Shown: positions 1-41,516 of the stretch, piece after piece
Position numbering within the stretch: position 1 is the stretch's first letter
Layout: every line of letters starts with the position of its first letter
Origin: a virus
Strand: one strand, 5' to 3'
DNA length: 45,111 nucleotides
Virus record (IMG/VR): IMGVR_UViG_3300049783_000416
Coordinates: 1 to 45,111 of that record
The notes under the pieces: model-generated
What the model saw: the letters and a program-made list of their open reading frames with translations, nothing else
What the model was told of the DNA's origin: nothing
Databases searched by the model: none
Translations under genes and position numbers: made by a program

Positions 1-891
1 TCAAATAGAAGTGTGCCAGTTGGTATAGACAGTGAAATAGATATTTGTACACTTACGTTTAGTATTCCTATATATGTTAGTCCCCCAACTAAAGTGCGCA
101 AAATGGGTGTTATTACTAATATTATTACAAGCATGTTTGACGAGAAGTTAGGCACTATTGAAGATGGTGTAAGTAAGCCTGTACTAAATGCGTATGATGA
201 TGTGCCAAGAGCAGGAGTTACTCAAGGCGAGTTTGGCAGAACAGCAGTCTCCGACACAACTGCGCAAATGGCTAATGTTAATTATGCTACGTGGGGGGCG
301 TTTGTAGACGGTGACTCTGTACAATTGTTCTCAAATGGCATGGTTGGTAATAAAAACTGGAGAGAAATCTTCGAAGCATTGCCAGGTATGTATGCAGCTG
401 ACGTAAGTCGCGTATACTTTACTAGCCAAGATAATGCAAGTACAATCACAGGCACATTTACACTAAGTCCGTTTGACGAAGCTAAAATACTCGTTAATTG
501 GGATACTGATAGTTTTCCAAGTGACACTGTCATTAGCGGACGTACTAGTATTGACTATATTATAGATCCAACTAATTACAACCCTAGTACTATTAAAACA
601 GGCGGTGTACGTTTGTTGTTGCTGAACGATGTCGGTGATGCTACTGCTACTCAATCACCAGTTGCGTGGCAAAACACAGATACAAGTGCATTAGTTGCAA
701 GCGCAAACGATATTATTGAATGGAATGGTTCTAAGTGGAATATTGTATTTGACGCAAGTGCTGCAACAGAAGTTACATATACTACTAATTTAAATACAAG
801 TGTGCAGTACAGATTTAAGAACAATGAATGGCTATTAAGTATTGATGGCGATTATCCAGTTGGCACGTGGAGAGTTGAACTAGCAGGCTAA
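1..891 (+). CDS. gp15-like tail sheath stabiliser/completion protein (5' partial)
   Basis: The reading frame is open from the first base of the window, so the N-terminus is missing; a GTG at 13 is probably internal. Near the visible start there is a segment, TFSIPIYVSPPTKVRKMGVI, of the type I recall from cyanophage gp15 proteins. The C-terminal half has an aromatic-rich beta pattern (AW.NTD, NDIIEWNGSKWNIVFD, QYRFKNNEWLLS, ending GTWRVEL). In T4, gp15 caps the proximal tail tube and sheath and joins the tail to the head. It lies on the plus strand, opposite to the capsid and fibre genes, and is followed after 8 bases by a NUDIX gene. The assignment rests on remembered family patterns rather than a search; another neck or tail-completion protein is the main alternative. 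Confidence 0.62.
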   Translation, partial: SNRSVPVGIDSEIDICTLTFSIPIYVSPPTKVRKMGVITNIITSMFDEKLGTIEDGVSKPVLNAYDDVPRAGVTQGEFGRTAVSDTTAQMANVNYATWGAFVDGDSVQLFSNGMVGNKNWREIFEALPGMYAADVSRVYFTSQDNASTITGTFTLSPFDEAKILVNWDTDSFPSDTVISGRTSIDYIIDPTNYNPSTIKTGGVRLLLLNDVGDATATQSPVAWQNTDTSALVASANDIIEWNGSKWNIVFDASAATEVTYTTNLNTSVQYRFKNNEWLLSIDGDYPVGTWRVELAG

Positions 892-1340: not shown

Positions 1341-1358
1341 CCTAAAAGATAGTATAAT
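1330..1358 (+). promoter_or_regulatory. perfect-consensus sigma70 promoter for hldE-hldD-cupin
   Basis: TTGACA at 1330-1335 and TATAAT at 1353-1358 are separated by exactly 17 bases. The -35 box lies in the last codons of the NUDIX gene. With usual spacing the first transcribed base is about 1365, the A of the hldE ATG, which predicts a leaderless mRNA. No Shine-Dalgarno sequence is visible before that ATG, in agreement. Confidence 0.8.
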
Positions 1359-1364
1359 AACATT

Positions 1365-2504
1365 ATGAAAGTATTAGTTCTCGGCGATGTAATAATCGAC
1401 AAATATATCTATGGCACATCAGAACGTTTAAGTCCTGAGGCGCCTGTGCCTGTGGTTAAGTACCAGCGTGAAGTTGAAACACTCGGCGGCGCTGGGCTTG
1501 TTTACGAAAACTTAAAAAGCCTAGGTGTCGACGTAACACTATTTGAAACTGAACAGCCTAGTAGCATTAAAACTAGAGTAATTTGTGACGGACATTATGT
1601 TACACGCATTGACGATGATAAACATGCAGACAGTACAGCAGTACTAGAAACTATAGAGTTGCATGACTTTTCAGAATACAAGTATGTTATATTAAGTGAT
1701 TATAATAAAGGTGTGTTAGACGAGTCGCTTGAAATTATCGAACACATTAACAAATTTAATTGTAAAATAATTGTAGATCCTAAAGAACATGCAAATCAGT
1801 ATAAGGACGCATGGCTAGTAAAGCCCAACTACAAAGAGTTTGACGAGTTTGGATTTACGTTTTGGCAAAGTAATATTATTACAACTAAAGCCGGGGACAA
1901 TGTTGTTGCTACAATAGATAATGTAGATTACAATATTCCAGTTGAATCTGTAGAAGTATCAGATGTTACAGGAGCAGGAGATTGTTTCTTGGCCGCATTT
2001 GTATACGGATTAACAAAGCAATACAATCATAAGAAGTGTTTAGAACTTGCCGTTAAAGGTTCTAGGGAAGCAGTTAAGCACGTAGGCACACACACGCTTA
2101 CTATAAGCGATATAGAAGAACGCATAGTGTTTACTAACGGAGTCTTTGACATACTACACACAGGACATTTTGAGCTACTAGCTGAAGCAAAATCGCTTGG
2201 CGATAAACTAGTTGTAGGTATTAATAGTGACGCAAGTGTAAAGCGTCTTAAGGGTGAAGACCGGCCTATTAATGATGCTGTAAAGCGTATTAGACAATTA
2301 GAAATATTGCCTTGGGTTGATAGAGTTGTATTGTTTAGTGACGATACACCATACGAATTAATTAAAAAATTAAAGCCGCACGTTATTGTAAAGGGCGGTG
2401 ATTACACAGTAGAACAAGTTGTAGGACACGATTTGGCTGAGGTGCATCTTGTGCCTACAGTTGAAGGATATTCAACAACACAGATTATAGAGGCAAGCAA
2501 ATGA
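1365..2504 (+). CDS. hldE: compact bifunctional HldE-like heptose kinase/adenylyltransferase
   Basis: The product (379 aa) has two domains. Residues 1-245 are a PfkB/ribokinase-type sugar kinase with SPEAPVPVVK, LSDYNKG, VDPK, VKPN and the catalytic VTGAGDC motif (Asp206). Residues about 253-379 are a cytidylyltransferase-like domain with the HTGH nucleotide-binding motif (265-268), KRLKGEDRP, KGGDY (343-347) and STTQII near the end. In E. coli HldE these halves make heptose 1,7-bisphosphate and ADP-D-glycero-beta-D-manno-heptose. Compared with the 477-aa E. coli enzyme, about 30 residues of the kinase lid and most of the interdomain linker are missing, and GGAANV reads GGAGLV. The isomerase GmhA and phosphatase GmhB are not in the window and would have to come from the host or elsewhere. 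The start is leaderless and overlaps hldD by 4 bases at the end. Confidence 0.88.
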   Translation: MKVLVLGDVIIDKYIYGTSERLSPEAPVPVVKYQREVETLGGAGLVYENLKSLGVDVTLFETEQPSSIKTRVICDGHYVTRIDDDKHADSTAVLETIELHDFSEYKYVILSDYNKGVLDESLEIIEHINKFNCKIIVDPKEHANQYKDAWLVKPNYKEFDEFGFTFWQSNIITTKAGDNVVATIDNVDYNIPVESVEVSDVTGAGDCFLAAFVYGLTKQYNHKKCLELAVKGSREAVKHVGTHTLTISDIEERIVFTNGVFDILHTGHFELLAEAKSLGDKLVVGINSDASVKRLKGEDRPINDAVKRIRQLEILPWVDRVVLFSDDTPYELIKKLKPHVIVKGGDYTVEQVVGHDLAEVHLVPTVEGYSTTQIIEASK

Positions 2505-12085: not shown

Positions 12086-12093
12086 TATTTATC
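12086..12093 (-). promoter_or_regulatory. late promoter GATAAATA
   Basis: GATAAATA on the minus strand, about 21 bases before ATG 12064. It overlaps the stop codon of the oxygenase gene ending at 12092, so it restarts late transcription of the structural genes just after the cassette. Confidence 0.65.
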
Positions 12094-12592
12094 AATTAAG
12101 AAGCTTACCTTTCAATATCCAATTTGCACTAACACGCCTAGGTACTGTGCTAGTTATAGGACAATGGTCAATTCGACAATCAAAAAATAAAGCTGAATTT
12201 TCTTTATGTTTATATGTTGCATCTTTAAATTGTGTTCCACCGTCAGCATCATTAACATAATATAATAAACTATAATATCCTTCATCATACATATCTTGGT
12301 GCCATCCGGTGTTTTGCCCAGCTGTATAAAAGTTAACCATGCATCTATGAAGATACTCTAATTGAAATATATCTTTGTTTGCATCTAACCAATAGTCAAG
12401 TGCATATATTAGCGTATCAGTTCCATGCCAATTGTTTGTATTATTTGTTATGTTAAACGGTTGTGTGAAAAATGCTCCAGCACCATCTTTCCCACCAGAG
12501 CTAGGATAATTCCAGTTGACCATAGGATCTAGAAGTTGATTATTAACTTTTTTATGTAGCCACTCCGGCAAAAAATTATCAAACTGTTTCAT
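12092..12592 (-). CDS. Fe(II)/2-oxoglutarate-dependent dioxygenase (paralog A)
   Basis: This 166-aa protein has the double-stranded beta-helix signature of prolyl-4-hydroxylase-like enzymes: HQD (His98, Asp100), a distal His143 in IDHCPI, and Arg153 in RRVSANW as the expected 2-oxoglutarate salt bridge. Such enzymes hydroxylate proteins, sugars or small molecules with O2. It is paralogous to the gene at 16028-16549: LPEWLH, CMVNFYTAGQNTGWHQD, YYSLLYYVN and GGTQFKD all have close counterparts. The ATG overlaps the stop codon region of the carbamoyltransferase gene, so it is the last gene of the cassette and co-translated with it. The substrate is unknown. Confidence 0.88.
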   Translation of the reverse strand: MKQFDNFLPEWLHKKVNNQLLDPMVNWNYPSSGGKDGAGAFFTQPFNITNNTNNWHGTDTLIYALDYWLDANKDIFQLEYLHRCMVNFYTAGQNTGWHQDMYDEGYYSLLYYVNDADGGTQFKDATYKHKENSALFFDCRIDHCPITSTVPRRVSANWILKGKLLN

Positions 12593-14412
12593 TAGTTATT
12601 TACAGTCAATAATTTATTATACTCAGGCAAATACAAATACTCTATCTTACTATATGCTAACGTGTGTAGTGCATCAGTTAGTGTTTCAACTAAAGGCTCG
12701 CCGCCTAAGTTAAAGCTAGTATTAAAGATAATTGGACATCCTGTCTTTTCTTTAAACGCTTTAATAATATCATAGTAATGCGGATTCTGTTCATGTGTAA
12801 CTGTTTGTATGCGGCAAGTTCCGTCAACATGAATAATAGCAGGGATCTTTTCAGCAATACCTGGTTGACAATTAACAGCATACATCATATGCGGACTGTC
12901 TTCCATACCACGTAAGTCAAACCATTCATGCGCATCTTCAGCTAGTATACTTCCTGCAAACGGTCTAAAGTATTCTCTACGTTTAATTTCGTTAACAAAG
13001 TCTTTTCCATCTTCAAATGTAGGATCAAACATTAAGCTCCTATTACCTAATGCACGTGGGCCTGCTTCAGAACGACCTTGGAAACATGCAACAATATGTT
13101 TGTTAGTCATTAAGTCAATTACACGTTGGTTATCTGCGTCTTCAATAGTTGCGTTATACTTGTTAGCTGCTTCAGTAATTTCATTGCTGGAATAACTACG
13201 TGGAGGACCCATATAAATGTCACGTCCGTTATTCTTTCTAATATCTTCGGTTAGCATGTAATGGCCAAGTAGTGCGGCGCCAATAGATGTGCCGCCATCA
13301 TTTGAAATAGGTTCAACAAATAGTTCAATACCTTTGTCACGCAAGCGATCTAATAAAAAGTAATTAGCTACACAGTTAAGGGCATAGCCGCCTGAAAATA
13401 CTACTTGTGTTTTGCCCGACAGTTTAACCGCTTTAAGTATAAGATTATACACTTGTTCCTGTGTTTCTTGTTGTGCAGCATATGCAAGATCTCTTCTATT
13501 TTGAAGTAAAGAAAGGTCGCCTTGTTGATCATGGTTAGTATCTAACTCGGGGTATGCTTTGGCGTTGACTAATGCTCCCCTAGGGTAGAACGAAACAAAC
13601 ATATTTCTATCTGATAGCATAACACCGTCTCCGTGCTCTACAAAAAACGGCGGTATATTTTTATTAGGCTCACCATAAGGAAATAATCCCATAGTTTTGC
13701 CTGCTTCAATTTCTTGAAAGCCTGCGTATTTTGTTGCTGCTTCGTATGTTTTAGTAATGCCTGCGGAACCAGAATGAACAGCAATATGAGTTCCTTCTTC
13801 TCCTAAGTGTTCGGAGGATGCATTATGATCAATATTTGTTAATATAGTGTCTTTACATGCACTATGCTTATATAGTGTTTTAAATGTCGAAGGGTAACTA
13901 CAATCTATAATTGATTCTACTTCCCACATACTCATTTCCCACATTGAATCAGGACGGTGTTTTGGTTCATAATTGTACTCTATATCTTGTACTGAACCGC
14001 AGCCGTCAATGACTAAAGAAACTGCACTGTCAAATCCTGAACGATAAAACGAACATGCTGAATGTAGTTTGTGATGCTGATGACTAAGATCAATTACTTG
14101 AGGATGATTTTGTGGTTCTATACGTTGATCAATTAATCCTAGCTTCCGGGCCATTCCGGTGTATATGTTATCACCTGTAAATTCAATTTTTCCAGCTGCT
14201 TCTATAGACGTAGTATGTGCCATAAACATGTAATCTACTTTGTCAGTATATTCTAATACCTTTGTCATTGCAGCAAGCGGCGAGCCGTCGTACTTATTTC
14301 TACTGAGGCGTTCTTCTTCAATTGAAAATACTATTTCGCCGTTTTTTACAAGACATACTCCTGCATTGTGGCCTCGAGAAATGCCTAAAATCCAAAAATC
14401 TGGTCTACTCAT
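12592..14412 (-). CDS. NodU/CmcH-family O-carbamoyltransferase
   Basis: This full-length 606-aa enzyme has both family domains. The N-terminal Kae1-like domain shows ILGISRGHNAGVCLV, EEERLSR, the metal-site histidines in HQHHKLHSACSFY (113, 114, 117), VIDGCGS, FSGGYALNCVAN (339-350) and PISNDGGTSIGAA. The C-terminal domain (from about 430) has QGRSEAGPRALGNRS (445-459), IKRREYFRPFA, IIHVDGTCRIQTV and TGCPIIFNTSFN. The family makes carbamoyl-adenylate from carbamoyl phosphate and ATP and transfers the carbamoyl group to a hydroxyl, as in nodulation factors, cephamycins and tobramycin. It follows the GT9 gene by 18 bases with an AAGGAC ribosome-binding site. The acceptor is likely a sugar or a hydroxyl made by the neighbouring oxygenases (inference). 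Confidence 0.93.
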   Translation of the reverse strand: MSRPDFWILGISRGHNAGVCLVKNGEIVFSIEEERLSRNKYDGSPLAAMTKVLEYTDKVDYMFMAHTTSIEAAGKIEFTGDNIYTGMARKLGLIDQRIEPQNHPQVIDLSHQHHKLHSACSFYRSGFDSAVSLVIDGCGSVQDIEYNYEPKHRPDSMWEMSMWEVESIIDCSYPSTFKTLYKHSACKDTILTNIDHNASSEHLGEEGTHIAVHSGSAGITKTYEAATKYAGFQEIEAGKTMGLFPYGEPNKNIPPFFVEHGDGVMLSDRNMFVSFYPRGALVNAKAYPELDTNHDQQGDLSLLQNRRDLAYAAQQETQEQVYNLILKAVKLSGKTQVVFSGGYALNCVANYFLLDRLRDKGIELFVEPISNDGGTSIGAALLGHYMLTEDIRKNNGRDIYMGPPRSYSSNEITEAANKYNATIEDADNQRVIDLMTNKHIVACFQGRSEAGPRALGNRSLMFDPTFEDGKDFVNEIKRREYFRPFAGSILAEDAHEWFDLRGMEDSPHMMYAVNCQPGIAEKIPAIIHVDGTCRIQTVTHEQNPHYYDIIKAFKEKTGCPIIFNTSFNLGGEPLVETLTDALHTLAYSKIEYLYLPEYNKLLTVNN

Positions 14413-14430
14413 GTACGTTGTCCTTAATTA

Positions 14431-15387
14431 TCAGTTGTTTATTATTGCGCTTGCAATTTTCTTTATTTGGTTTTCGGTTAGTGCCATTGCTTGTTCATTT
14501 TGCCTGTTAGCATGTTCGTCTGAAGTAATACGTATAGGATTATATACCCGTTTGCTTTTATTAAAATCAAAAACTTTAAAATTCTTGTTTTCTGGATACG
14601 AAACATTTTCAGGATATGTTGAACCTAATACTACATACGAAGGTTTATCTATTGCATGTGTAACGTGTTGCCCTACAGAATCACAACCAATAAATGCATC
14701 TGCTGCGTCTAGTAAGCCAAACCATTTTCGTAGATCTATATTTTCTACAAAGAATACTTCTTCTTTAACTCCTAACTTTTGAAAGTCTACGTTAAATTCG
14801 TTCATTAGTAATACGCAATATCTATGTTCAATTAAGCGTATTAGTCGTGCAGCGTCAGCTATTGTAAACGACCTTCCTGAGTTGTCAATAGGTCCACTAG
14901 GTGCCTCTATAGCACCTAGTGTGATGCCTTTTCCAAATGGTTGAAAAATTATCAAAGGTTTGTTATTACGCTTACTTTTCATATCTGTAATAATACTAGT
15001 TGCAGTAACCTTTTCTTCATTACTTAAATGTATTGCTAAATTTGATAATTCTTTATCTAATGATCCATTAATAATTATATCAAACGCTTGAGAAATAGAA
15101 CAGTGTTGATTATAATATTCCCATACACCGTACGGCTCAGGTACTATTAAATTTCGTTGTTGTATTTTATCTTTAAATAAATGCGCATGACCAACTGGAT
15201 ATGATCTAGCATGTAATTCTGGGTGCCCGGAAAATGCTTCGTATGCAAATTCTGAAAATATTATAAAATCATCTTGCGGATTATTTCTATGATATTTTTC
15301 TAATGCAGGAATAGCACAAATAACTCTGCCTATACCTCCATTTATATAAAATGCTGTATTTCTTTGATTAACTATTTCTTGTTTCAT
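14431..15387 (-). CDS. GT9 (heptosyltransferase-like) glycosyltransferase
   Basis: The product (318 aa) has a GT-B layout. An early GGIGRVICAIPALEKY (17-32) matches the glycosyltransferase family 9 start, and IGCDSVGQHVTHAIDKPS with VLGSTYPEN (233-261) matches the C-terminal nucleotide-sugar-binding region (Asp236, His241). GT9 enzymes such as WaaC and WaaF transfer heptose from ADP-heptose; others use different donors. The same window encodes HldE- and HldD-like enzymes, so an ADP-heptose donor is a good hypothesis. The start overlaps the stop of the upstream oxygenase gene by 4 bases (ATGA). The acceptor could be a virion protein, a host glycan or a small molecule; nothing in the sequence decides. 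Confidence 0.82.
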   Translation of the reverse strand: MKQEIVNQRNTAFYINGGIGRVICAIPALEKYHRNNPQDDFIIFSEFAYEAFSGHPELHARSYPVGHAHLFKDKIQQRNLIVPEPYGVWEYYNQHCSISQAFDIIINGSLDKELSNLAIHLSNEEKVTATSIITDMKSKRNNKPLIIFQPFGKGITLGAIEAPSGPIDNSGRSFTIADAARLIRLIEHRYCVLLMNEFNVDFQKLGVKEEVFFVENIDLRKWFGLLDAADAFIGCDSVGQHVTHAIDKPSYVVLGSTYPENVSYPENKNFKVFDFNKSKRVYNPIRITSDEHANRQNEQAMALTENQIKKIASAIINN

Positions 15388-16031
15388 AAATGTAACTCGT
15401 TTAAATTTTCATTTTTTCCAAATAGGCCTTTAACAAATACATTAAAGGCTAAGCTTATTCTTGTTTTATCTGATTTATTAGGTGCTACTTCGTGCAGTAG
15501 TGTAGAAGGAAAATATATAATACCATTAGTACCAACAGGAATAGTCCAATTACGTGAGTTAGCTAAGTTATACTCTGAAACATCTATTGCTAGTGTCTCA
15601 TTAGCAGTAATGTTTGTATTACTATTTGATGAAAACGTTATACTATCGGTTTCGTCAGTTTCTATATAATATACTCCGCTAATTATCGAATTAGAATGAT
15701 TGTGCTTATGGTGTGCAGTTCCAGGTGGATTAATATTCAACCACGACTGTGTTAGATAAAAACTATGTTTTTTATCAATACACATTACTTCATTTATATA
15801 CACATCTAAGCCATCAAGTATTCTTCTTTTTATTTCACTATAATGATCTAATTCTAAAATATTATGATTAGCTGAAGAAAAGTTTTGGGCTGTATTTAAC
15901 GTCATTTCCGTTTGCTCGTTAGTTGTGTCATGTACGTTAGTATCACTATAGTGCGTATCATATAAAAATACAGGAGTGCCAAACAATAACATAGTATTCG
16001 ATTGTGCCTTTGTTGGGTTGTATTCTATCAT
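15384..16031 (-). CDS. TIGR02466-type putative Fe(II)/2OG oxygenase
   Basis: This 215-aa protein resembles the TIGR02466 family of putative 2OG-Fe(II) oxygenases. It begins LLFGTPVFLYD, then has SWLNINPPGTAHHKHNHSNS with SGVYYIET, where His108, His110 and His112 offer the first metal ligands. A distal His180 lies in YFPSTLLHEVAP and Arg191 in TRISLAFN for 2-oxoglutarate. Members occur often in marine T4-like phages without assigned substrates. Both ends overlap neighbouring genes by 4 bases (ATGA), showing tight coupling with the dioxygenase upstream and the GT9 gene downstream. An ATG at residue 14 is possible but ATGA coupling favours the chosen start. Confidence 0.83.
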   Translation of the reverse strand: MIEYNPTKAQSNTMLLFGTPVFLYDTHYSDTNVHDTTNEQTEMTLNTAQNFSSANHNILELDHYSEIKRRILDGLDVYINEVMCIDKKHSFYLTQSWLNINPPGTAHHKHNHSNSIISGVYYIETDETDSITFSSNSNTNITANETLAIDVSEYNLANSRNWTIPVGTNGIIYFPSTLLHEVAPNKSDKTRISLAFNVFVKGLFGKNENLNELHL

Positions 16032-16549
16032 TGTTTCTTTTTCCCTCGTAATATCCAGTTTACACTAAGTCTTCTTGGAGATGTATTACGTATTGCTGCA
16101 TGCCATTCTGTACACTTAAATAACAAAAATCTGTTTTCTTTGTGTTTAACAGAAGGATGGTCTTTAAACTCAGTGCCGCCGTCGCTGGCATTTACATAAT
16201 ACAATAATGAATACCAATCGTTATCTTTATCTTCGGGTATATCTTGGTGCCATCCTGTATTTTGACTAGCTGTATAAAAGTTTATTAAACATCGATCAAC
16301 ATAGCTAAGTTCAAATAAGTTTCTATTATCATAAAGCCAACAATCTAACGCATACACTAGCGATCCGCACTGTGAAAAGTCTTGCTTTACGTCATGTTGA
16401 TATGGTATATGAGCCAACGATGCTTTATTAAGATCAGTATCAAGCCCGCCATATCCTGGAAAATGCCAATCTACAGTTGGTAATTCAAGCTCTTGACGAC
16501 AGCGTTCATGCAGCCATGCTGGTAATGTATCATCACTTATTAATATCAT
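16028..16549 (-). CDS. Fe(II)/2-oxoglutarate-dependent dioxygenase (paralog B)
   Basis: From ATG 16549 the protein is 173 aa, with HQD (His101, Asp103), distal His150 in EWHAAI and Arg160 in PRRLSVNW. It is a clear paralog of the 12092-12592 protein; LPAWLH, FYTASQNTGWHQD, WYSLLYYVN and GGTEFKDH align throughout. The frame is open to a GTG at 16582, but ATG 16549 aligns with the start of the paralog and gives only a 17-base overlap with the upstream gene, so it was preferred (ATG 16558 is also possible). Differences are concentrated around residues 33-62, where substrate-recognition loops commonly lie in this fold, so the two copies may act on different substrates. Confidence 0.87.
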   Translation of the reverse strand: MILISDDTLPAWLHERCRQELELPTVDWHFPGYGGLDTDLNKASLAHIPYQHDVKQDFSQCGSLVYALDCWLYDNRNLFELSYVDRCLINFYTASQNTGWHQDIPEDKDNDWYSLLYYVNASDGGTEFKDHPSVKHKENRFLLFKCTEWHAAIRNTSPRRLSVNWILRGKKKQ

Positions 16550-17228
16550 TAGTACCATCAATTCTAATATTACCCGATACACTTATTCTATAGTCATCAG
16601 AAGTGTAAAACGGATACACACAGTGATGTAATGTTGAAGGAAACATTAGTATAGTTCCTTCCCAAGACTTATCTACGGGCAATGGTGTAGGACGCAAGCT
16701 TCCTAAGGCATCAGTATGAAAAAAGGTAAATTTTGATGTAGACGCTCCATCAGTGTCGACACCAGGGTCAGAACCTTGCCCTGATACTGGAGGGAAATAA
16801 GTTTCTTCTTCTTTTAAATCATATGGAATATTAATCCATATAACAAAGCTTAATACACCTGAATGATGATGTACTGGATTAAACTCATACTTTTTTTGTT
16901 TATTAACCCACATACTACTAAGATATAGTCTATATTTTTTGTTCTTTGCAGCTTCTTCAAAGGTACCAATATGTCCTGGGGTTCCTTCATCCCATTGTTG
17001 TGCCATAGCTTCTATAAACGGAGCCATATTAGGCACAACATGATTTAATGAATATTCTTCTTTCATGTGTCCTAATAGATTGTTATTGTATTTCTCACCA
17101 TTTTCTTCTGTTATCTCACTAATAGCGTTTGATAATCCTTCAAAAAGGTCAAATGGTAACTTTGATTGCATTACTCCTGGAGTAACGAGAAAGTTCATTG
17201 ACATTTTAGCTACTTCGTTTTCTGACAT
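16533..17228 (-). CDS. putative Fe(II)/2OG oxygenase-like protein, phage type
   Basis: This 231-aa protein shows a jelly-roll oxygenase pattern: NPVHHHSGVLSFVIWINIPY (His120-122), then GTILMFPSTLHHCVYPF (His201, His202) and YRISVSGNIRI with Arg214 as a possible cosubstrate ligand. The order and spacing resemble the phage proteins often annotated as 2OG-Fe(II) oxygenase superfamily, but the canonical HxD is not obvious; HHH could supply two ligands. Its ATG directly follows the halogenase stop with AAGGAAC as ribosome-binding site, making it the second gene of the cassette. Catalytic activity is less certain than for the two HxD paralogs. Confidence 0.68.
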   Translation of the reverse strand: MSENEVAKMSMNFLVTPGVMQSKLPFDLFEGLSNAISEITEENGEKYNNNLLGHMKEEYSLNHVVPNMAPFIEAMAQQWDEGTPGHIGTFEEAAKNKKYRLYLSSMWVNKQKKYEFNPVHHHSGVLSFVIWINIPYDLKEEETYFPPVSGQGSDPGVDTDGASTSKFTFFHTDALGSLRPTPLPVDKSWEGTILMFPSTLHHCVYPFYTSDDYRISVSGNIRIDGTNDINK

Positions 17229-18806
17229 TTAATGTTCCTTGTTATTGTATATATGCTTCGATAACCAGTCGTAAGCACTAAGCTGGGTTTTTACAGCAGC
17301 TTTCCATTGTTTTATTTTGTTGCGTCTATCATACAAAAACTTGTCACATAGATCACGCATACTTATTTGTAAGCCTAATTCTTGCTTTGAAATATCTATC
17401 TCATTATATACATTGTAGTTCATGCCATTAGCTATACAAACAATACCTGCTTTTCCAGAATGTTTAAGTGTGGCTGTTTTCTTTATGTATAAGTCATTAA
17501 AGCCGCTTGAACTGTTTTCTAAGTTTGGATCATAAACTCTTGCTCTATTTTTATTCCAGTAATCAGAATCGCTTCTTATAGTTAATGTATAATGCAATGC
17601 AACAAATTGTGCAAAATTATGATAAAACTTTCTTGTGTGTGCATTATACACATCGCGATCAAATTGGTTAATTACAGGGCGATCTGCATGTCGACAAAAT
17701 TCTAAAATAAACTCATGCACACTTAATAAGCCATTACTTTCTAAAGGTTCAATAAATGCAGCAGCTAATCCAATACCTAAAACATTCTTTACCCATGTAC
17801 GCTCGTATATACCTGTCTTAAAGTTAATATTTCTAAAATTAAGATCGTCAGTAACCCTATTGGGGTTATGTAATGTCATTTTATCTGAATTAAGATGATC
17901 TTTAAATTCTTGTAGAGCGTCTTCGTCTGATATAAACTCATCTGAATATACATACCCTGTACCTATCCTAGACCAAAGTGGAATATTCCAAACCCAACCA
18001 TTACTTAATGCAGTACAATTTGTATACACTTCTAATTCTTTTTCTTTATCAGTATACGGTACTTGCACAGCCCATGCTTTGTTATTTGGTAAAATATCAC
18101 TATAAGATACAAACGGTTCTTCTAATGCTTTGCCTAATAGTAAACTTTCAAATCCAGTACAGTCTACATAAAGGTCTGCTTGTAACTCTGTACCGTCTTC
18201 GAGTATTATTTTAGATATGCCGTTGTCGTCAGTAGGTGCATCTTTAACTGTTCCTACTACGTGCTTAACACCTCGAGGTATGCAGTAACGATCTTTAAGA
18301 TACTGTCCAAACAATAAAGAATCAAAATGGAAGGCTGTATTATAATCAAACCTGAAATCATCAAGGCCATTGTCTTCATTAGTTGATATTTTGTTTTCAT
18401 TTACTAATGCCATTACAGGCCAAAAGTTTTCAGCAAAGTCACTAGAGTGTGTTTCGGGATAATACGCTTTTTTTAATGACCAATGATTATAATTAACGTC
18501 ATCAGTTTCTATAGGGTCTCCAAAGGGGTAATGAAATCCACCATAGTCTTTATCATAAAAGTCAGTAAATTTAATACTAAGCTTATACGTACCGTTTGTA
18601 TGTTGTAAGAAGTCCTTGTCGTCTATTCCAAGGTAGTTGGTCCAATCTCGGATAAATCCTAGTGTACTTTCACCTACACCTACTTTAGGAATATCAGCAC
18701 TTTCTACTAGTGTAATATCTTTGTTAGGAAATTTCCTAACGAGGGTTGAAGCAGCCATCCATCCAGCTGAGCCTCCGCCAACTACTATTATACTATTAAA
18801 TGCCAT
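17229..18806 (-). CDS. flavin-dependent halogenase (tryptophan-halogenase family)
   Basis: This complete 525-aa protein has the family landmarks in order: FAD-binding GGGSAGW (10-16), GVGEST (43-48), the catalytic lysine Lys75 in TYKLSIKF (Lys79 in PrnA/RebH), VDCTGFESLLLGKALEEPF, WVWNIP (271-276; family WxWxIP) and FIEPLESNG (352-359) with Glu356 equivalent to PrnA Glu346. Family members use reduced FAD, O2 and halide to form hypohalous acid that reaches the substrate through a lysine-lined tunnel. Asn358 replaces the usual Thr beside the halide site, a possible change in halide preference. No flavin reductase is in the window. A cyanophage relative, VirX1, has been reported as a broad-substrate iodinating enzyme, so the substrate need not be tryptophan. 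It is the first gene of the cassette, with its own sigma70 promoter and a GGAGG site 7 bases before the ATG. Confidence 0.95.
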   Translation of the reverse strand: MAFNSIIVVGGGSAGWMAASTLVRKFPNKDITLVESADIPKVGVGESTLGFIRDWTNYLGIDDKDFLQHTNGTYKLSIKFTDFYDKDYGGFHYPFGDPIETDDVNYNHWSLKKAYYPETHSSDFAENFWPVMALVNENKISTNEDNGLDDFRFDYNTAFHFDSLLFGQYLKDRYCIPRGVKHVVGTVKDAPTDDNGISKIILEDGTELQADLYVDCTGFESLLLGKALEEPFVSYSDILPNNKAWAVQVPYTDKEKELEVYTNCTALSNGWVWNIPLWSRIGTGYVYSDEFISDEDALQEFKDHLNSDKMTLHNPNRVTDDLNFRNINFKTGIYERTWVKNVLGIGLAAAFIEPLESNGLLSVHEFILEFCRHADRPVINQFDRDVYNAHTRKFYHNFAQFVALHYTLTIRSDSDYWNKNRARVYDPNLENSSSGFNDLYIKKTATLKHSGKAGIVCIANGMNYNVYNEIDISKQELGLQISMRDLCDKFLYDRRNKIKQWKAAVKTQLSAYDWLSKHIYNNKEH

Positions 18807-18809
18807 AAA

Positions 18810-18856
18810 AATGCCTCCGTTACTGTTATTTAAGTATAACAGTGATTGGAGGCATT
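18810..18856 (-). terminator. SD-sequestering hairpin / probable intrinsic terminator
   Basis: A long inverted repeat: outer arms AATGCCTCC and GGAGGCATT (9 bp), a small internal loop, inner arms ACTGTTAT and ATAACAGT (8 bp), and a 6-base loop. On the minus strand it is followed by a T run, so it can end transcripts of the upstream adhesin/chaperone operon. Its right arm contains the GGAGG of the halogenase gene, so in any read-through RNA the ribosome site would be paired. This resembles known T4 cases (genes e and soc), where early read-through RNA is untranslated because a hairpin hides the site. Confidence 0.75.
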
Positions 18857-18861
18857 GTCAA
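18833..18861 (-). promoter_or_regulatory. sigma70 promoter of the halogenase cassette
   Basis: On the minus strand TTGACA (18861-18856) and TATACT (18838-18833) are 17 bases apart. The predicted start is near 18826, giving a leader of about 20 bases with GGAGG and ATG 18806. The start point lies inside the right half of the hairpin listed separately, so these transcripts lack its left arm. Confidence 0.75.
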
Positions 18862-18868
18862 GTGGTTT

Positions 18869-19429
18869 TTACAGTGGTTCGCCTGTTTCTGGATGACGCG
18901 GAGTAGGTGCGTTTGATAGATTATCAAACTCTCCTGGTTCAGTTGTTCCTGGGCGCATTGGCCAGTCTATATCATGCAGTGTATCAATGTCAGCCCAAAC
19001 TATTGTAGTTGGTAAGTCTCGAACAGCTTGTCTATAAGTTGCCCAAGTTGCTTTGACTGAGTCACTTAACGGCGAATCAGGCATTTGTGTCCAATCGCTG
19101 AGCATTAACAAGCTTTCTCTAGTACGAGTTAAAAATCGATCCTGTTTTTCAGCATCTGATAATGCTGTAACAACCCATTCTTGTGTAAATGTTCCGTCAC
19201 CATTATCAGTAATGTCGCCTTCTTCAGTATCTGATCCTGTCATGCCATTAGCATAAGTAAGATCAGAATCTGCGATTCCTACATAACCAGCAGCAGCAAG
19301 TTCTTCTATAGTAAAGTCCCAAGTTCCCATTACTGCCATAATGTTATTAGCAACATACACGCCTGTGTCAGATGCATCTAGGGCACCATTTTCATCTATT
19401 TTTCTATATGTTATGTTTTGCATATCCAT
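18869..19429 (-). CDS. tail-fibre assembly chaperone-like protein
   Basis: This 186-aa protein has a C-terminal half with RESLLMLSDWTQMPDSPLSD, then WATYRQAVRDLP (about residues 99-141). This is the pattern of the phage tail assembly chaperone domain (Pfam Phage_tail_APC type) found in proteins encoded just after fibre or adhesin genes. The N-terminal part is an acidic beta-like domain containing DNGDGTFTQEWVVTALSDAE. It directly follows the Gly-rich adhesin gene (21-base gap, AAAGGAC ribosome-binding site), so it may help fold that adhesin or stay with it at the fibre tip. It is the last gene before the halogenase hairpin. Confidence 0.75.
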   Translation of the reverse strand: MDMQNITYRKIDENGALDASDTGVYVANNIMAVMGTWDFTIEELAAAGYVGIADSDLTYANGMTGSDTEEGDITDNGDGTFTQEWVVTALSDAEKQDRFLTRTRESLLMLSDWTQMPDSPLSDSVKATWATYRQAVRDLPTTIVWADIDTLHDIDWPMRPGTTEPGEFDNLSNAPTPRHPETGEPL

Positions 19430-19450: not shown

Positions 19451-20974
19451 TTATAAGTTGTGTGTGTTACAGCAAGGCCAGCATCTGCTGTCGCCCCACA
19501 AAATGCGTACTGTGCCAGGTCCGCCCCAGCCGCCTGCATTACCAGTACCGCCGCCGCCGCCGCCGCCGCCGTAGCAACCACCGCAACTATGACCGTTTTG
19601 ATTTCCGTTTGACCATGGTTCGCCTGGCTTGCCACAGGTACCGCCTGAGCCGCCTTGGCCTCCGGCGCCTGTTTGGTGTGAGTAACCTGCGTTAGAACAG
19701 TGGCCGCAACTTGCTGGACTTGTAGCATAACAACACATTCCACATGCGCCAGTACCGCCACCACCACCAGTTCCGTGTGTTGAACTGTGGTGACTTGTAC
19801 CAGATCCGCCGCCGCCGCCACAACCGCAATAGTTTGAAGTGGTGGAATTTGCTGGTGCAGCGCCACAATAGCCAGCAGCGCCTCCGCCTCCGCCGGCTGT
19901 ACCAGGGTAAGCAATCATTCCGTAACTACCGCAACATGTGCCAGTGCCGTCTGTTACTGCGCCAATGGAATAACAACCGCCGTAGCAACCACAACAGCCA
20001 CCACATGCATTCATTCCTGGCCAACATGAACATCCGCCGGTGGTACTATTCCAGCAGCCTGCGCGTCCAACTTGGATACAATAATTACTTCCAGGAGATA
20101 CTGGAATATTATTAGCCCATACTCTACCGCCACCGTGTCCGCCACAAACAGCCCACTGATAGTTGCCGCCGCCTCCTGCGCCGCCTGCCATAACGTGTAC
20201 CTTAGTTACACCAGCTGGTGCAGTCCAGCTATACGAGCATTGCCCGCCATTCTGACCGTATGCACCGTTATATTGTTGTTGTCCTAGTACTACAGAGAAC
20301 TGAACTTGCTTACTAAATGCTTGGGTTCTATATACGCCTGCTGGCATGGCGGCGTTACGAACACCTAATGTAAAGTTATAAGTGTTAGTTGATGGACTTG
20401 GTGGACCTGCCCAGTTTAACAAACCTCCGTTAGTTAATGTTGGAGTAACACCCGAAGCACTTGCTAAGTTACCTAAAGTTGTTATAGACCATTCAGTTGG
20501 TGAGCCGGTTGCTGCAAACTGAATGTTACCATCAAATATCTCTACTGAACTGTTATTCAGTGTAATTGCTGGATAGCCGTTAGTTGTACTAACATTTATT
20601 ACAACATCTACTTCATATACTTTATTATATTTTGTATCAGTAATATCTAATTTAAGTACTGATAGTGCAATCATACTAGACGCTGCACCTGTTAATGTGC
20701 CTGAGCTTGATATAGACAGTCCGTATTGGGCTCCGTCGCGCCAAGCAAATGTATAAACAGAGTCACCAAACGCACCAGTAACTGATAATGTTGTGTTTAG
20801 TGTTTCGTTAGCGTTTACAAAGTCAGGAAGAGGATCTCTGTCCAGAGACGCTCCTCCAGCTAAAACAAATCCGGTGCCATTACTTGTTAGTACCAGTCCG
20901 GAGTTCAACGTATTTGGATCTTCCAGTTGGTGGCCACTGCCTTTGTTTTTTGATAATCCTATAAATCTTCCCAT
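19451..20974 (-). CDS. Gly- and Cys-rich tail adhesin
   Basis: The 507-aa protein starts MGRFIGLSKNKGSG and has a middle Ig-like segment (about residues 60-230; SVYTFAWRDGAQYGLSISSS then GTLTG). From WTAPAGVTKVHVMAGGAGGG onward it becomes a glycine-rich C-terminal domain ending GGWGGPGTVRILWGDSR. Similar glycine-rich domains form receptor-binding tips in T-even-like and marine phages. I count 27 cysteines after about residue 235, including CC and CxxC clusters, which is exceptional. Two overlapping late promoters precede it and AAAAGGAAG is the ribosome-binding site. The next gene is a putative assembly chaperone. It is most likely a host-recognition adhesin; disulfide or metal binding by the cysteines is a guess. 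Confidence 0.8.
   Translation of the reverse strand: MGRFIGLSKNKGSGHQLEDPNTLNSGLVLTSNGTGFVLAGGASLDRDPLPDFVNANETLNTTLSVTGAFGDSVYTFAWRDGAQYGLSISSSGTLTGAASSMIALSVLKLDITDTKYNKVYEVDVVINVSTTNGYPAITLNNSSVEIFDGNIQFAATGSPTEWSITTLGNLASASGVTPTLTNGGLLNWAGPPSPSTNTYNFTLGVRNAAMPAGVYRTQAFSKQVQFSVVLGQQQYNGAYGQNGGQCSYSWTAPAGVTKVHVMAGGAGGGGNYQWAVCGGHGGGRVWANNIPVSPGSNYCIQVGRAGCWNSTTGGCSCWPGMNACGGCCGCYGGCYSIGAVTDGTGTCCGSYGMIAYPGTAGGGGGAAGYCGAAPANSTTSNYCGCGGGGGSGTSHHSSTHGTGGGGGTGACGMCCYATSPASCGHCSNAGYSHQTGAGGQGGSGGTCGKPGEPWSNGNQNGHSCGGCYGGGGGGGGTGNAGGWGGPGTVRILWGDSRCWPCCNTHNL
19545..19572 (+). repeat. CCG/GCC triplet-repeat tract in adhesin gene
   Basis: A run of CCG-type triplets encodes consecutive glycines near the adhesin C-terminus. 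It is GC-rich compared with the AT-rich surroundings and a candidate site for in-frame length change. Confidence 0.6.
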
Positions 20975-21000: not shown

Positions 21001-21014
21001 TATTTATATTTATG
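21001..21014 (-). promoter_or_regulatory. overlapping late promoters TATAAATA and CATAAATA
   Basis: On the minus strand two late boxes overlap (CATAAATA at 21014-21007, TATAAATA at 21008-21001); the second is an exact T4 consensus. They lie about 27 bases before ATG 20974 and overlap the stop codon of the 105-aa gene. Confidence 0.72.
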
Positions 21015-21342: not shown

Positions 21343-24300
21343 TTATGATGATAAAAAGTAATTTAATGCAACTGGTGCACCTTTAATACCGCCAGTAAAA
21401 TTAACTTTCTGTGTTATATTTATCTGTGCGTTAGTAGTTGTTGTTATTTCTTGTCCTGATATTTTTACGACTCCAGCTGTCATACTGTTTACATTAAGCT
21501 CACCTGCACCTCCACCAATCTGTGAAGCAATGTAAGTTTTAATTGCTTTTTGTGTTGGAACAATAGAATCACTATTAGCAGTAAATGTACCATCTACACT
21601 AAATTCAGTAATTGTTGCGCCTGTACCGCCAAGTGCAACTGCACCTAGTTGTAGTTCGTTTAGTCCAGTAATGTTAAACGCATCAGCGTTAAGTGTAGCT
21701 ACACCAGTTGCCTGTTCTACGTTAAACAATCCGCCAACTCTAAAGTTACCATCTTGGTCAGTAGTTGTGTAGAATACTCTGCCACCTCCTCCAACAACAG
21801 TTTCGTTTGCTGGTATTGGTGCTGTTCCTGGTGCGCCTGGATAGTTAGTATTTGCAAAGTTACCTGTACCAACGTCTAGGAAATCGTGTCCTGTTAGACG
21901 TACTTGTGAATACCTAATACGTACTGATATAGCTGCATCATCTGCAGGTGCATCTGTAATAGTCATTGCAGGACTAATTTGGAACTGCGCTGAGTATGGT
22001 CCTGATCCAGTAGTGTTTCTAATAGCTACAAGCTTATAGTAATTACTATCGCCAGCAATAGTTAAGTTGGCGCCCGCTTGTGGAAGTGCTGTTACTCCAC
22101 TTACATTAATAAGTGTTCCAGGTTGGAACATGTCTGCATAACCGTCACCAACTATTGTTGCTGCTGCTGTTGCAAATCCTGTACCTCTGTTAGTCCAAGT
22201 AGGCTGTGCTAATACACCGTTACCAATTCTAACAGTATGCGGAACATCTACAGTGTTACTTGGATCTGTAAGTGTCAATGTAGGTGCGCTGCTATACCCT
22301 ACACCTGGATGCCATATTGTAACCAATGCAATTTTTCCATCTGCTACATATGCTCTGCCTTTAGCAGTACTTGCATATAAATTATCTGCAGGTGCAGTAA
22401 ATGTTACTCTTGGTTCAATTGAATATGTAGTAGTTGCGTCAAGTACTGATTCTATAGCAACACCAGTTACATGGTCCCAGCCTGCACTGTCATCACTCAT
22501 CTTTTTAACAGTTGCAACTTTTGTGCCGCTATTGTATGTGTCAACGTAAGCATATTGACCTGCGCCTGTGCCGTTTGTAATATATATTGCCATACCTACG
22601 TATGCTGCACTAAGTTTTACATCAGTGTTAGATATAGTAATTTGTGTTGCTGTGCCTTCTTGAGCAACGTTAGAGTTTTTAACATACCCTGCTCCGCCTT
22701 TGTTAGCAGCAGGATCAGTAAGTCTAACTTCAAACACACCGCCGTTTACAACAACTGGGCTGTTAATAGCTGCACTATAACCTTCGCCTGAAGGTGTTAT
22801 AGTTGTGCCGCCTGCTGTATATCCAACACCTGCGTTTGTATATTCAATAATAAGAATGTTATTATCGTCTGTTAATACGTGTTTTGAGAACGCTTCTAAA
22901 GCAAAGTTATCAACATTACCAGTTACTGGTACTTCTGTTGCATCAACGCCTTCAGCAACAGTACCAAACGTACCATATGAACTGTTACCGTTTGTTGCAC
23001 GAATCTTGCCGCCATTTTCTGCTAAGTAGCCGATGTGGCCGTAGTATGAGAACACACTAACAAGTTCTGCTCTTCCTAAGTTAGTAACCCAGCAACCAAT
23101 TCCGTCACTAATGATTTGCGTAAAGTCGTTTGCAACAATACTGTCGTTGCCTCCGGCATGTAAGTCGCCGTCTATCTTTAGACCAACACAGCCAGTACCA
23201 AATGTAGTTACGTTTTGTACATATGGAGATTTGTTTGCAATCCAAGCGCCTGTATGTGCAGTTCCCCAACCTGGGTCTAAACTTACAAATGCTCCTGCAC
23301 TTGGACGTTTAGTTCCAAATGCGTTGTTAGAACCAAGTGTTCCTGTTAGTCCTGATATTGTACAGTTACGTAAGCCTGTTCCGTTGCGCATGTAGAACAT
23401 ATCTTCAAGTGCTGAACCGTATACTGAGTTAGCATATAACCGTGCAGCTAATAATGACTTGTAATTACCTGTGTAAATTAAATCCCATTGTATAGCATCT
23501 AAGTAGCTATTAACATCTCTTGAGCATGCTGCAATACTATAAGTGTAAGAAGGATGTTGATCTGCAACATATGCATGAACTTCAGCTACTAAGAACGCTC
23601 TGTTTGCTTCAATAGTTTCTACAGCATATGTATAACCAGTTGTGGAGTTTGCATCGTTTGTTCCATAAGTTACAGGAACAGTCGAATCTCCCGATACTCC
23701 ATTTACACGGTAGTCAGTATAATCATAAATCTGTGTCCAAAGGTTAGCTGCAAATGCTCCTGCTGCTGCGCTGCCTGCTGGAGAAGTTGTTACTTGAGTT
23801 AATGCGTTTCCTGTTGTTTTAGTTACAGCAGAGTTAGTAACAATGTCACTTGTAATAACTGCCATTCTAGCATATACATCTAACGAGATAGTTGTGTCTC
23901 CTACTGCTGTTACGCTACCAGCTGGAGTTATTCTTGTTGAACGTAGTTCGTCTCCTACAACTGCTGTATTTTCAGGGACAACAATTGGAAGTATTTCTGC
24001 AAAGCTTCCTGTTTTAACAAATATAGTGTGCTGTGGCATAACTATAGCTGGTACAGCCGTTGTGTTTCCTGCTGTAAGTGCCGAAGTAACTATGCCTATT
24101 AGTGTAGTTACTACTGTTGTTGCATCTGATTCTTCAGTAAGAGTAGCGTCAGTAAATCGAGCTAAACTACCGCGTACTGTTGTCGGAGCAAGATTAGACA
24201 TAACTGCGTCTGCAAGTGTAATAATGTATGCAAGTCCTGCAGCAGTTGCAGCTGGTGAAGCATTTACTCCGCCAATGTAAGTAGTGCCGTCGGCTGCATA

Positions 24301-26319
24301 ATATGCCTTTGCTGCTTGTACTGAACGCTGATTGCCACCATGTGATAAATCCCATATAACTGCGTCAAGCACTTGTCCAGCATCTCTACGACATGTTGCT
24401 TGTACATAAGAAAGACTTACTGCTGATGTTCCTGTAGCATCTGCTAGAGCAAATAATGCACCGCCGTTGGTTTCTGAAACTGTAAATGTAGTTGCGTTAA
24501 TAATAGTTTTTACAAAGTATTCTGTTCCTGCAACAATGTTTCCAAAAGTAGTGCCTGCAAACTTAATTGCCACATTTGGTGCTAGCCAACTTGTACTAGT
24601 TACAGTAATAGCATCTGTTGATGCAGTTGTAGCTGTAGCAGTATCGGTATAAGTAGCTTCAATATATTCAATTACTTCATCTTGGATGAAGTGTCTGTTT
24701 CTTTGCAATAATGTTTTAGCGTTAAAACGTATTGCTCCAGCTTGTACTTGTTGTGTTGCGTGTTGCAAAGTTTTCCAAGGACGATCAATTGTTACACCAC
24801 GGTTAGGTGCTTTGCCGTCGACGCCAGCAGATCCTTCAACATAAAATATATTATTAAGTTGTCCAAGGTATGCCCATTCTGGAGCATTTCCTGCTGCATT
24901 TACTCGTAAGCCTTGTCCCTCTGTGCCAACTGGCAATCTTGTTGCGCCAGCGCCGCCATAGTAAACAATATCGCCTGCTGTGGTTAAGTTTCCTGATTCT
25001 GCGCCAGCGTTGACTAAATTCCATTCGCTGCCGTCTGTATCTTGATCTGGTCTGTTTTGTAATGTAACTTGGTCTGAAGCATGTTTAAGTACACAAATGT
25101 AACTGTTAACACCGTGTCCTACAACATCACCTAAATCATATTCTGTTGCGTTGGCCCAAGCACCTTTCCATTCAAAACCTTCGTTAAGTCTCTGCCAGTA
25201 TGTTGCACTTGGTGGATGTTGTGATGCATGCTTTAGAATACATAGATACGTATAACCGCCTACTCGAGCTACATCTCCTTCGATATATTCTAAGTCAGAT
25301 GCATTGGTGTCATAGTCGCCTACGTAACGAAATCCAGTTGTAAACAAGTCCCAAGCTGCTGCGTTATCGCTTGGCTTTAAACCAATGTTGTTTGTAATTG
25401 AAACATAACTATAACCGCCATATGTTACAAAGTCACCTGGTTGATAAGCTGTGCCTACTGCCCAACCATCTTCAAATTCTAAACCTTCAACAAACTGTGC
25501 CCAATTAGATTCGTCTGCTGCTAAATTAGTTGCACTACTTGTGTGTTGTGTAGTACAAATCCAAATGCCGCCGCCGTATTTTACAACGTCATTAATTCTG
25601 TAACGTGTGTTTATTGCGTGGGTAGACCTATATTCGATGCCTTTATGTAGATAATCAAACTTGGCTTGATCTGCTTCTAAACCTAATGAAGGAGTCGCAG
25701 CACTAGTATGGCCTGTATTAACAGTATATAATGTGCCGCCGTAGCGTACAATATCATTTTTTCTATAGCGAGTATTAATTGCCCAAATACCAGTCCAGTA
25801 AAATCCTTCTGAAAAGATCTGCCACTTAGCTTGGTCTGCTTCTAACCCTAATGTAATATTTGCTGCTGAAGTATGCTGTGTAATACAAATATAAACAGTG
25901 CCGTTATATTTTGCTATGTCGTTAACTTTATAGCGTGTAGCAACAGCCCAGTCTGTTTTATAATCAAAGCCTTCTGCATATAAGTCCCAAGAAGATTGAT
26001 CTGTTTCTAGACCTAATGTAGCTGTACTTGCACTTGTATGTTCTGCATTAGCAACATATAGATAGCCGCCATACTTAACAATATCATTAATTTTGTATAA
26101 TGTGTTTGTAGTCCAAGCACTTTTCCAAGCAGTACCGTCTGAAATCTTATTCCAGTAAGTTGTCTGTGCTGAAGAAAACAATGTTGGGGCTTGATGGCCT
26201 TTGATACATACGTATGTGTTTCCTCCATTACGTACAATGTCGTCCTTGTAGTAGACTGTAGTGGAAGCCCAATCGTTCTTCCATATAAATCTAATTCTAC
26301 CTAATTTAAACTCTGCCAT
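21343..26319 (-). CDS. large fibre protein with eight ChtBD3-like repeats (1658 aa)
   Basis: Residues about 13-430 are eight repeats of the form W...T.Y..ND.V.YGG..Y.C...H, resembling ChtBD3/CBM5-12 carbohydrate-binding modules. Next comes a segment with VDGKAPNRGVTIDRPWKTLQ, typical of a beta-helix start, and two copies of a C-x-R-D...LD...WDL...GN module (near residues 640 and 930). The beta-helix-like middle contains AGAFVSLDPGWG, KSPYVQNVTTFGTGC and NDFTQIISDGIG, and the C-terminal part has TDQDGNFRVGGLFNVEQATG and IVPTQKAIKTY. It is a paralog of the next gene upstream (26369-31366) over most of its length but lacks that protein's propeller insertion. A late promoter and a CGGAG ribosome-binding site precede ATG 26319. 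It is probably a side or long tail-fibre component that binds cell-surface glycans. Confidence 0.82.
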   Translation of the reverse strand: MAEFKLGRIRFIWKNDWASTTVYYKDDIVRNGGNTYVCIKGHQAPTLFSSAQTTYWNKISDGTAWKSAWTTNTLYKINDIVKYGGYLYVANAEHTSASTATLGLETDQSSWDLYAEGFDYKTDWAVATRYKVNDIAKYNGTVYICITQHTSAANITLGLEADQAKWQIFSEGFYWTGIWAINTRYRKNDIVRYGGTLYTVNTGHTSAATPSLGLEADQAKFDYLHKGIEYRSTHAINTRYRINDVVKYGGGIWICTTQHTSSATNLAADESNWAQFVEGLEFEDGWAVGTAYQPGDFVTYGGYSYVSITNNIGLKPSDNAAAWDLFTTGFRYVGDYDTNASDLEYIEGDVARVGGYTYLCILKHASQHPPSATYWQRLNEGFEWKGAWANATEYDLGDVVGHGVNSYICVLKHASDQVTLQNRPDQDTDGSEWNLVNAGAESGNLTTAGDIVYYGGAGATRLPVGTEGQGLRVNAAGNAPEWAYLGQLNNIFYVEGSAGVDGKAPNRGVTIDRPWKTLQHATQQVQAGAIRFNAKTLLQRNRHFIQDEVIEYIEATYTDTATATTASTDAITVTSTSWLAPNVAIKFAGTTFGNIVAGTEYFVKTIINATTFTVSETNGGALFALADATGTSAVSLSYVQATCRRDAGQVLDAVIWDLSHGGNQRSVQAAKAYYAADGTTYIGGVNASPAATAAGLAYIITLADAVMSNLAPTTVRGSLARFTDATLTEESDATTVVTTLIGIVTSALTAGNTTAVPAIVMPQHTIFVKTGSFAEILPIVVPENTAVVGDELRSTRITPAGSVTAVGDTTISLDVYARMAVITSDIVTNSAVTKTTGNALTQVTTSPAGSAAAGAFAANLWTQIYDYTDYRVNGVSGDSTVPVTYGTNDANSTTGYTYAVETIEANRAFLVAEVHAYVADQHPSYTYSIAACSRDVNSYLDAIQWDLIYTGNYKSLLAARLYANSVYGSALEDMFYMRNGTGLRNCTISGLTGTLGSNNAFGTKRPSAGAFVSLDPGWGTAHTGAWIANKSPYVQNVTTFGTGCVGLKIDGDLHAGGNDSIVANDFTQIISDGIGCWVTNLGRAELVSVFSYYGHIGYLAENGGKIRATNGNSSYGTFGTVAEGVDATEVPVTGNVDNFALEAFSKHVLTDDNNILIIEYTNAGVGYTAGGTTITPSGEGYSAAINSPVVVNGGVFEVRLTDPAANKGGAGYVKNSNVAQEGTATQITISNTDVKLSAAYVGMAIYITNGTGAGQYAYVDTYNSGTKVATVKKMSDDSAGWDHVTGVAIESVLDATTTYSIEPRVTFTAPADNLYASTAKGRAYVADGKIALVTIWHPGVGYSSAPTLTLTDPSNTVDVPHTVRIGNGVLAQPTWTNRGTGFATAAATIVGDGYADMFQPGTLINVSGVTALPQAGANLTIAGDSNYYKLVAIRNTTGSGPYSAQFQISPAMTITDAPADDAAISVRIRYSQVRLTGHDFLDVGTGNFANTNYPGAPGTAPIPANETVVGGGGRVFYTTTDQDGNFRVGGLFNVEQATGVATLNADAFNITGLNELQLGAVALGGTGATITEFSVDGTFTANSDSIVPTQKAIKTYIASQIGGGAGELNVNSMTAGVVKISGQEITTTTNAQINITQKVNFTGGIKGAPVALNYFLSS
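25025..26285 (-). repeat. eight ChtBD3-like repeats (copy 1)
   Basis: Repeat starts include WKNDW, WKSAW, YKTDW, WTGIW, YRSTH, FEDGW, YVGDY and WKGAW. Each is followed by a Y..ND.V or Y..GD.V strand and a YGG..Y strand, at roughly 45-60 residue spacing. They would form a tandem set of small beta domains with exposed aromatic residues. Confidence 0.7.
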
Positions 26320-26342: not shown

Positions 26343-26350
26343 TATTTATC
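26343..26350 (-). promoter_or_regulatory. late promoter GATAAATA
   Basis: GATAAATA on the minus strand, ending 24 bases before ATG 26319, in the short gap after the 1665-aa gene. Confidence 0.68.
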
Positions 26351-38053: not shown

Positions 38054-38074
38054 CTCTTATTCTCCTTAACATAG

Positions 38075-38082
38075 TATTTATT
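38075..38082 (-). promoter_or_regulatory. late promoter AATAAATA
   Basis: AATAAATA on the minus strand overlaps the stop codon of the 194-aa gene and lies about 22 bases before ATG 38053. Confidence 0.62.
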
Positions 38083-41448: not shown

Positions 41449-41466
41449 ATGCAATATTTAGCCATT

Positions 41467-41494: not shown

Positions 41495-41516
41495 AATTTT
41501 ACTGTGTTAGTAAAAC

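Follow-up and report, generated by a model that had tools for sequence, protein, structure and literature searches.

A sigma70-type promoter within a ribosome-site hairpin of a phage halogenase operon: a candidate gate for transcript origin

The halogenase operon and the element at its start

The 45,111-nt stretch of viral DNA analyzed here (IMG/VR record IMGVR_UViG_3300049783_000416, hereafter the window) is a piece of a T4-like jumbo phage genome from a group of giant marine phages. Its major head protein shares 67-69% identity with those of Vibrio phage 2.275, Sinorhizobium phage Phosso and Pseudomonas phage PA5oct. At 17229-18806 (-), the window encodes a flavin-dependent (tryptophan-type) halogenase of 525 amino acids (PF04820, phrog_2928), which is the first gene of an operon. 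Residues 6-433 match PF04820 (E = 3e-104; 349.7 bits against a cut-off of 21), and the nearest solved chain is the phage flavin-dependent halogenase VirX1 (PDB 6qgm, E = 1e-99); this likeness concerns the enzyme. Relatives of the halogenase in named phages all showed less than 60% identity.

On the same strand, the region 3' of the halogenase (12092-17228, (-)) holds ORFs whose ends abut or overlap: three 2OG-Fe(II) oxygenase-like, one GT9-like that scores under the Pfam cut-off, one carbamoyltransferase and one more oxygenase-like. Gene junctions fall at 17229/17228, 16582/16533, 16031/16028 and 15387/15384, and this abutting or overlapping arrangement suggests that translation of the halogenase carries the later genes of the operon. 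The packed operon (12092-18806, (-)) sits between tail fibre genes. Its gene content suggests a cassette for tailoring small molecules or surfaces.

The 5' neighbour of the halogenase, identified from its ORF ends and family matches, is a tail fibre assembly chaperone gene (18869-19429, (-)). Its stop codon (18869-18871) ends 12 nt ahead of the hairpin described below, and with the stop so near the hairpin foot, a terminating ribosome should leave the hairpin closed. Farther upstream, the late-type motif GATAAATA at 26343-26350 (-) precedes a 1658-aa tail fibre gene (21343-26319) and is the likely source of an RNA that would read through into the halogenase. Overlapping late-type motifs (CATAAATATAAATA, 21001-21014, (-)) precede the ORF at 19451-20974.

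Directly ahead of the halogenase, an extended sigma70 promoter and a hairpin share one stretch of DNA (18861-18807, (-)). The -35 element TTGACA (18861-18856) is separated by 17 nt from the -10 hexamer TATACT (18838-18833), and a TG lies one base ahead of the hexamer, forming the extended -10 TGT-TATACT (18833-18841). Both sigma70 hexamers are thus present (11 of 12 letters), at a spacing within 16-18 nt. From the position of the -10 element, we infer that the internal RNA would start at the A at 18826 (-), 6 nt past the hexamer, 20 nt ahead of the ATG at 18806 and inside the right half of the hairpin.

In the predicted fold, a 9-bp lower stem joins the anti-Shine-Dalgarno arm AATGCCTCC (18848-18856, (-)) to GGAGGCATT (18810-18818, (-)). 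Beyond a 4x3 internal loop, an 8-bp upper stem joins ACTGTTAT (18836-18843, (-)), which overlaps the -10 element, to ATAACAGT (18822-18829, (-)) around the loop ACTTAA. The right arm of the lower stem contains GGAGG (18818-18814, (-)), every base of which is paired. At the stem foot lies a non-conserved run of five T (18807-18811, (-)), a candidate terminator tail. The original prediction had described a stem of 9 bp plus 8 bp pairing the halogenase GGAGG, a TTGACA-17-TATACT promoter overlapping its left arm and a start point within its right arm; the fold, the letters and spacer, and the -10 geometry agree with it on all of these. Across the whole window, no known RNA family was detected at the gathering threshold, and the window holds no second exact copy of the promoter-hairpin element.

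Conservation and folding of the element

We kept 80 halogenase loci from IMG/VR, eight of which (L001-L008) encode proteins at 73-100% identity. Since L001 matches the window exactly over the element, the eight sequences compared were the window and L002-L008. Promoter and hairpin were both present in all eight, and at the level of sequence this conservation is the decisive evidence for the element. The -35 hexamer is invariant, the extended -10 reads TGTTATAMT throughout and the spacer is 16 or 17 nt (TTGACA-16/17-TATAMT in 8/8). TGTTATAMTTAAATA is likewise present in every sequence. The eight represent about three lineages, and counts among them are therefore not independent.

The arms change between lineages while the pairing is kept. 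The upper stem reads CTGTTAT/ATAACAG, TATGATGT/ACATTATA or, in L008, CTTTGATGTTATA/TATAATATCAAAG. When the structures were aligned by hand, 6 of 16 stem columns contained double changes that preserve pairing, and all 115 retained cells paired; bulged and internal-loop cells were left out for the window, L002 and L004, as were four end cells for L006 and L007. RNAalifold on a MAFFT alignment gave a weak result (10 pairs, -2.61 kcal/mol, two with double changes), since the position of the right arm differs by about 3 nt from lineage to lineage. The window hairpin is the least regular of the eight, with an internal loop containing two A-C oppositions.

A palindrome over a promoter could also serve as a DNA operator, with a repressor binding the dyad. 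The arms of 17-20 bp do overlap the promoter, and the window is the one sequence whose palindrome folds better on the opposite, non-coding strand (-27.9 against -22.3 kcal/mol). In the other seven sequences, the coding-strand fold is the stronger. Oppositions outside Watson-Crick pairing, read on the coding strand, comprise 16 G-U and 2 A-C, with both A-C in the window. The arm letters also differ by lineage, while pairing with the ribosome site stays. The preference for G-U and the coding-strand bias point to an element that acts as RNA, with the window itself as the exception, and we consider the operator explanation highly improbable.

Next to its background, the hairpin is stable. When sequence ahead of the start point was shuffled and the remainder left unchanged, none of 200 shuffles equaled the real fold of the window (z = -6.6), and none of 200 matched it for any of seven halogenase leaders (z = -4.6 to -7.4). 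A chance hairpin was rejected on both the shuffles and the conservation. Among 242 gene starts drawn from seven contigs (the window, G002-G006 and G008), the halogenase leaders ranked 1, 2, 3, 4, 5, 7 and 14 by stability, at -20.9 to -28.3 kcal/mol, with pairing at 9-12 of the 12 ribosome-site positions. Ranked among 60-nt segments from both strands of the full 45 kb, the window hairpin was 15th on the coding strand (-22.9 kcal/mol) and 2nd on the opposite strand (-27.9 kcal/mol).

Strong intergenic hairpins of a design unlike that of the halogenase occur at 41455-41530 (-) of the window and in G005, G006 and G008, some with T-runs; they leave downstream ribosome sites largely free.

The promoter text itself was also examined. 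A loose promoter scan is without significance on its own (28 found against 31.7 expected in 10 kb), but nine related records contain 22 matches to the strict pattern TTGACA-15..18-TATAMT and none to the reversed control pattern. In IMG/VR, 50 stretches carry the same promoter text as the halogenase element; eight are the halogenases, and 30 distinct others were compared. Unrelated promoters of this text reach up to 19 linking pairs by pair count alone, but the 12 of these 30 with the most spacer-linked pairs fold weakly, at -3 to -11 kcal/mol. Energy, not pair count, separates the halogenase leaders from unrelated promoters. Strong hairpins at L089, L090, L104 and L130 lie downstream and do not involve the spacer.

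In halogenases of 55% identity or less, a strong hairpin with the promoter was absent from all 53 distinct starts, which were what remained of 72 loci (L009-L080) after dropping those with a missing start, too short a flank or a sequence identical to another. Vibrio phage 2.275, Sinorhizobium phage Phosso and PA5oct, selected by capsid as named jumbo relatives, and T4 yielded no case of the promoter followed by GGAG (0/4).

Promoter classes and the two transcripts

The motif ATAAATA occurs 57 times upstream of 230 gene starts against 1.6 expected, usually in the form GATAAATA and most commonly 15-30 nt ahead of the start. Seven of nine scanned proteins behind it are structural, covering baseplate wedge, tail sheath, head-tail adaptor, tail tube and baseplate hub families as well as a virion structural protein and a tail fibre; of the other two, one is weakly Hsp70-like and one is unknown. 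Sigma70-type promoters precede genes for a DnaB-like helicase, a primase and a late-transcription sigma factor, together with heptose-kinase/adenylyltransferase-like and dNMP-kinase-like genes and one unknown. Assigned by gene content rather than by timing, ATAAATA as the late class and the sigma70-type promoter as the early class are well founded. The late read-through and early internal start that had been assumed for the halogenase are now backed by the genes found behind each promoter type. The late-transcription sigma factor gene (G005:96788-97630, (-); L136:16788-17630) has a sigma70-type promoter and a leader outside the strongly folded set.

The loop text MTTAAATA (18827-18834, (-)) is invariant apart from M in all eight sequences, and neither the -10 element nor the stem fully requires it. 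TTAAATA might be a variant late promoter acting besides the sigma70 one, in which case internal starts would be made early as well as late, with the hairpin serving only to insulate the gene from read-through. It is one letter off ATAAATA, and the text ends about 20 nt ahead of the start codon, where ATAAATA peaks; such a dual promoter would bring the element closer to T4 gene e. However, TTAAATA occurs 13 times upstream of the 230 starts against 4.2 expected, and seven of the 13 are the halogenases themselves, so that the remaining six amount to hardly any enrichment. Some of its letters also pair with the -10 element in the stem. We regard a dual promoter as quite improbable.

We compared the predicted folding of the read-through RNA and of the internal RNA. 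The mean unpaired probability of the GGAG core was at most 0.001 in the read-through RNA and 0.046-0.774 in the internal RNA, with the same direction in all eight sequences. Folding predictions thus favour the earlier claim that the ribosome site is concealed in read-through RNA and accessible in internal RNA. The predicted openness of the internal RNA was just 0.26 in the window and 0.046 in L005, and the modelled "on" state varies in cleanness among the sequences.

The original prediction had also allowed that the read-through RNA might terminate at the hairpin, and this part may apply to half of the sequences. A run of 5-8 T follows the stem in the window, L002, L004 and L005, whereas L003, L006, L007 and L008 have at most two; termination is probably lineage-specific. 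The T-runs, together with a hairpin placed directly behind the upstream stop codon, could mean that the element is chiefly an intrinsic terminator of the late tail fibre operon, overlapping the promoter to save space and hiding the ribosome site as a by-product. Yet the four sequences with short T-runs still keep the full hairpin, and in most cases the other strong intergenic hairpins have only 0-5 of 12 positions of the next gene's ribosome site paired. We consider this terminator explanation unlikely.

We favour, with a probability of roughly 0.7, a translation gate that senses where the transcript began, with read-through RNA silenced and internally started RNA translated. Late polymerase leaving the tail fibre genes would produce an RNA with both arms, which would fold and conceal GGAGG so that the halogenase stays untranslated; in lineages with a T-run, the same hairpin may end transcription too. 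Host polymerase with sigma70 starting at 18826 would produce an RNA lacking the left arm, in which GGAGG is free and the halogenase can be translated, and start-stop coupling would probably extend translation to the genes behind it. Expression of the operon would then be confined to the early or middle period, despite its position inside a late block. We infer this timing, the silencing and the coupling from the conserved sequences, the predicted folds and the gene classes.

The dNMP-kinase-like gene offers a second case of an early-type gene among late ones. In G002, G003 and G006, it lies on the same strand between a late head-tail adaptor gene and a long tail-sheath-type ORF (names taken from the G005 counterparts). 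In G002, its promoter spacer contains CTCCTAACT and its leader AGTTAGGAG, and G003 has the same with one G-U. Over 80 IMG/VR loci, we found 38 distinct promoters of this gene, 31 with a leader and seven short. Fourteen of the 31 leaders beat 95% of spacer shuffles, and in 28 at least 3 of 5 ribosome-site bases are paired. By sequence, this gene carries what appears to be a weaker, variable version of the promoter-hairpin device.

In the seven short promoters, the -10 element ends 5 or 6 nt ahead of the ATG. A -10 ending exactly 6 nt before the ATG was found at eight genes in the seven contigs, against 0.06 expected per distance. One such sigma70-type promoter, at 1330-1367 (+) of the window, predicts a leaderless mRNA; further promoters of the leaderless type lie at G002:18183-18220, G003:17587-17624, G005:3177-3214, G005:14617-14654 and G006:21322-21359. 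Among the four named phages, a leaderless promoter was found in PA5oct (one site) and in none of Vibrio phage 2.275, Phosso and T4. Orthologues of the kinase gene have the hairpin form in some cases and the leaderless form in others. It is conceivable, though we would put it below even odds, that this clade gates early genes among late ones by the RNA 5' end, through either a hairpin-embedded or a leaderless promoter. If so, late read-through would be silent either way, having a hidden ribosome site in the one form and neither a ribosome site nor a 5' end in the other.

A late motif also occurs within a hairpin elsewhere in the window. At 38054-38100 (-), AATAAATA lies in a hairpin formed by CCTTGACA and TGTTAAGG, which reaches the ribosome site of a baseplate-type ORF (35558-38053), with CTTTGACA/TGTCAAAG as the counterparts in G005 and G008. 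The conserved end of the upstream gene supplies its left arm, and the pairing is kept in some, not all, of the 29 distinct leaders listed. T4 gene e, with a late motif in a ribosome-site hairpin, resembles this leader.

Comparison with known systems

In T4, genes e, soc, 49 and I-TevI have late promoters within a ribosome-site hairpin. The long read-through RNA sequesters the Shine-Dalgarno sequence, and RNA from the promoter in the left arm, which lacks that arm, is translated (PMC3014915, PMC2988022). The halogenase element resembles e and soc in that its Shine-Dalgarno sequence is predicted to be paired in far-upstream RNA in all eight sequences and in that its inner promoter lies in the left arm (8/8), with the probable start beyond. 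The gene mobE of phage Aeh1 shows the same logic of Shine-Dalgarno sequestration. The T4 gene e leader, folded as a control, gave -14.9 kcal/mol, weaker than the halogenase leaders; the text of its late promoter falls within the left half.

The promoter classes differ. T4 combines a late inner promoter with silencing of early read-through, whereas the inner promoter of the halogenase is sigma70-type, the late motif of its clade being ATAAATA, and it is late read-through that would be silenced. Lacking a late inner promoter, the halogenase element falls outside the T4 e/soc type, though it would work alike, and the analogy originally drawn to T4 e and soc with the classes swapped is apt. T4-type systems also serve lysis or homing, whereas the halogenase gene is metabolic.

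Related solutions exist outside this group. In IS10/Tn10 and IS200, a hairpin in read-through RNA blocks transposase synthesis, and the element's own promoter is used; these are transposable elements without a temporal programme, whereas the halogenase device belongs to a phage operon. Retroregulation of lambda int by sib likewise gives one gene two transcripts, a single one of them productive, and distinguishes early from late sources; sib works by way of RNase III at the 3' side, whereas the halogenase element would hide the ribosome site.

Within the open-access literature searched, we found no report of an early promoter inside such a hairpin. What appears to be new here is the T4-e-like overlap of promoter and hairpin with swapped classes; the logic itself is known from T4 e, soc, I-TevI and mobE. 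The combination of a promoter with an anti-Shine-Dalgarno arm is a mark that can be searched for in other phages from sequence alone, and the device predicts the stage of infection at which the viral halogenase acts. T4 provides the textbook case of control by transcript origin, in which genes are held until late. The halogenase device appears to reverse this, shutting off an early metabolic operon when late transcription comes to cross it, and it shows a route by which a phage could keep early genes in a late block without loss of timing.
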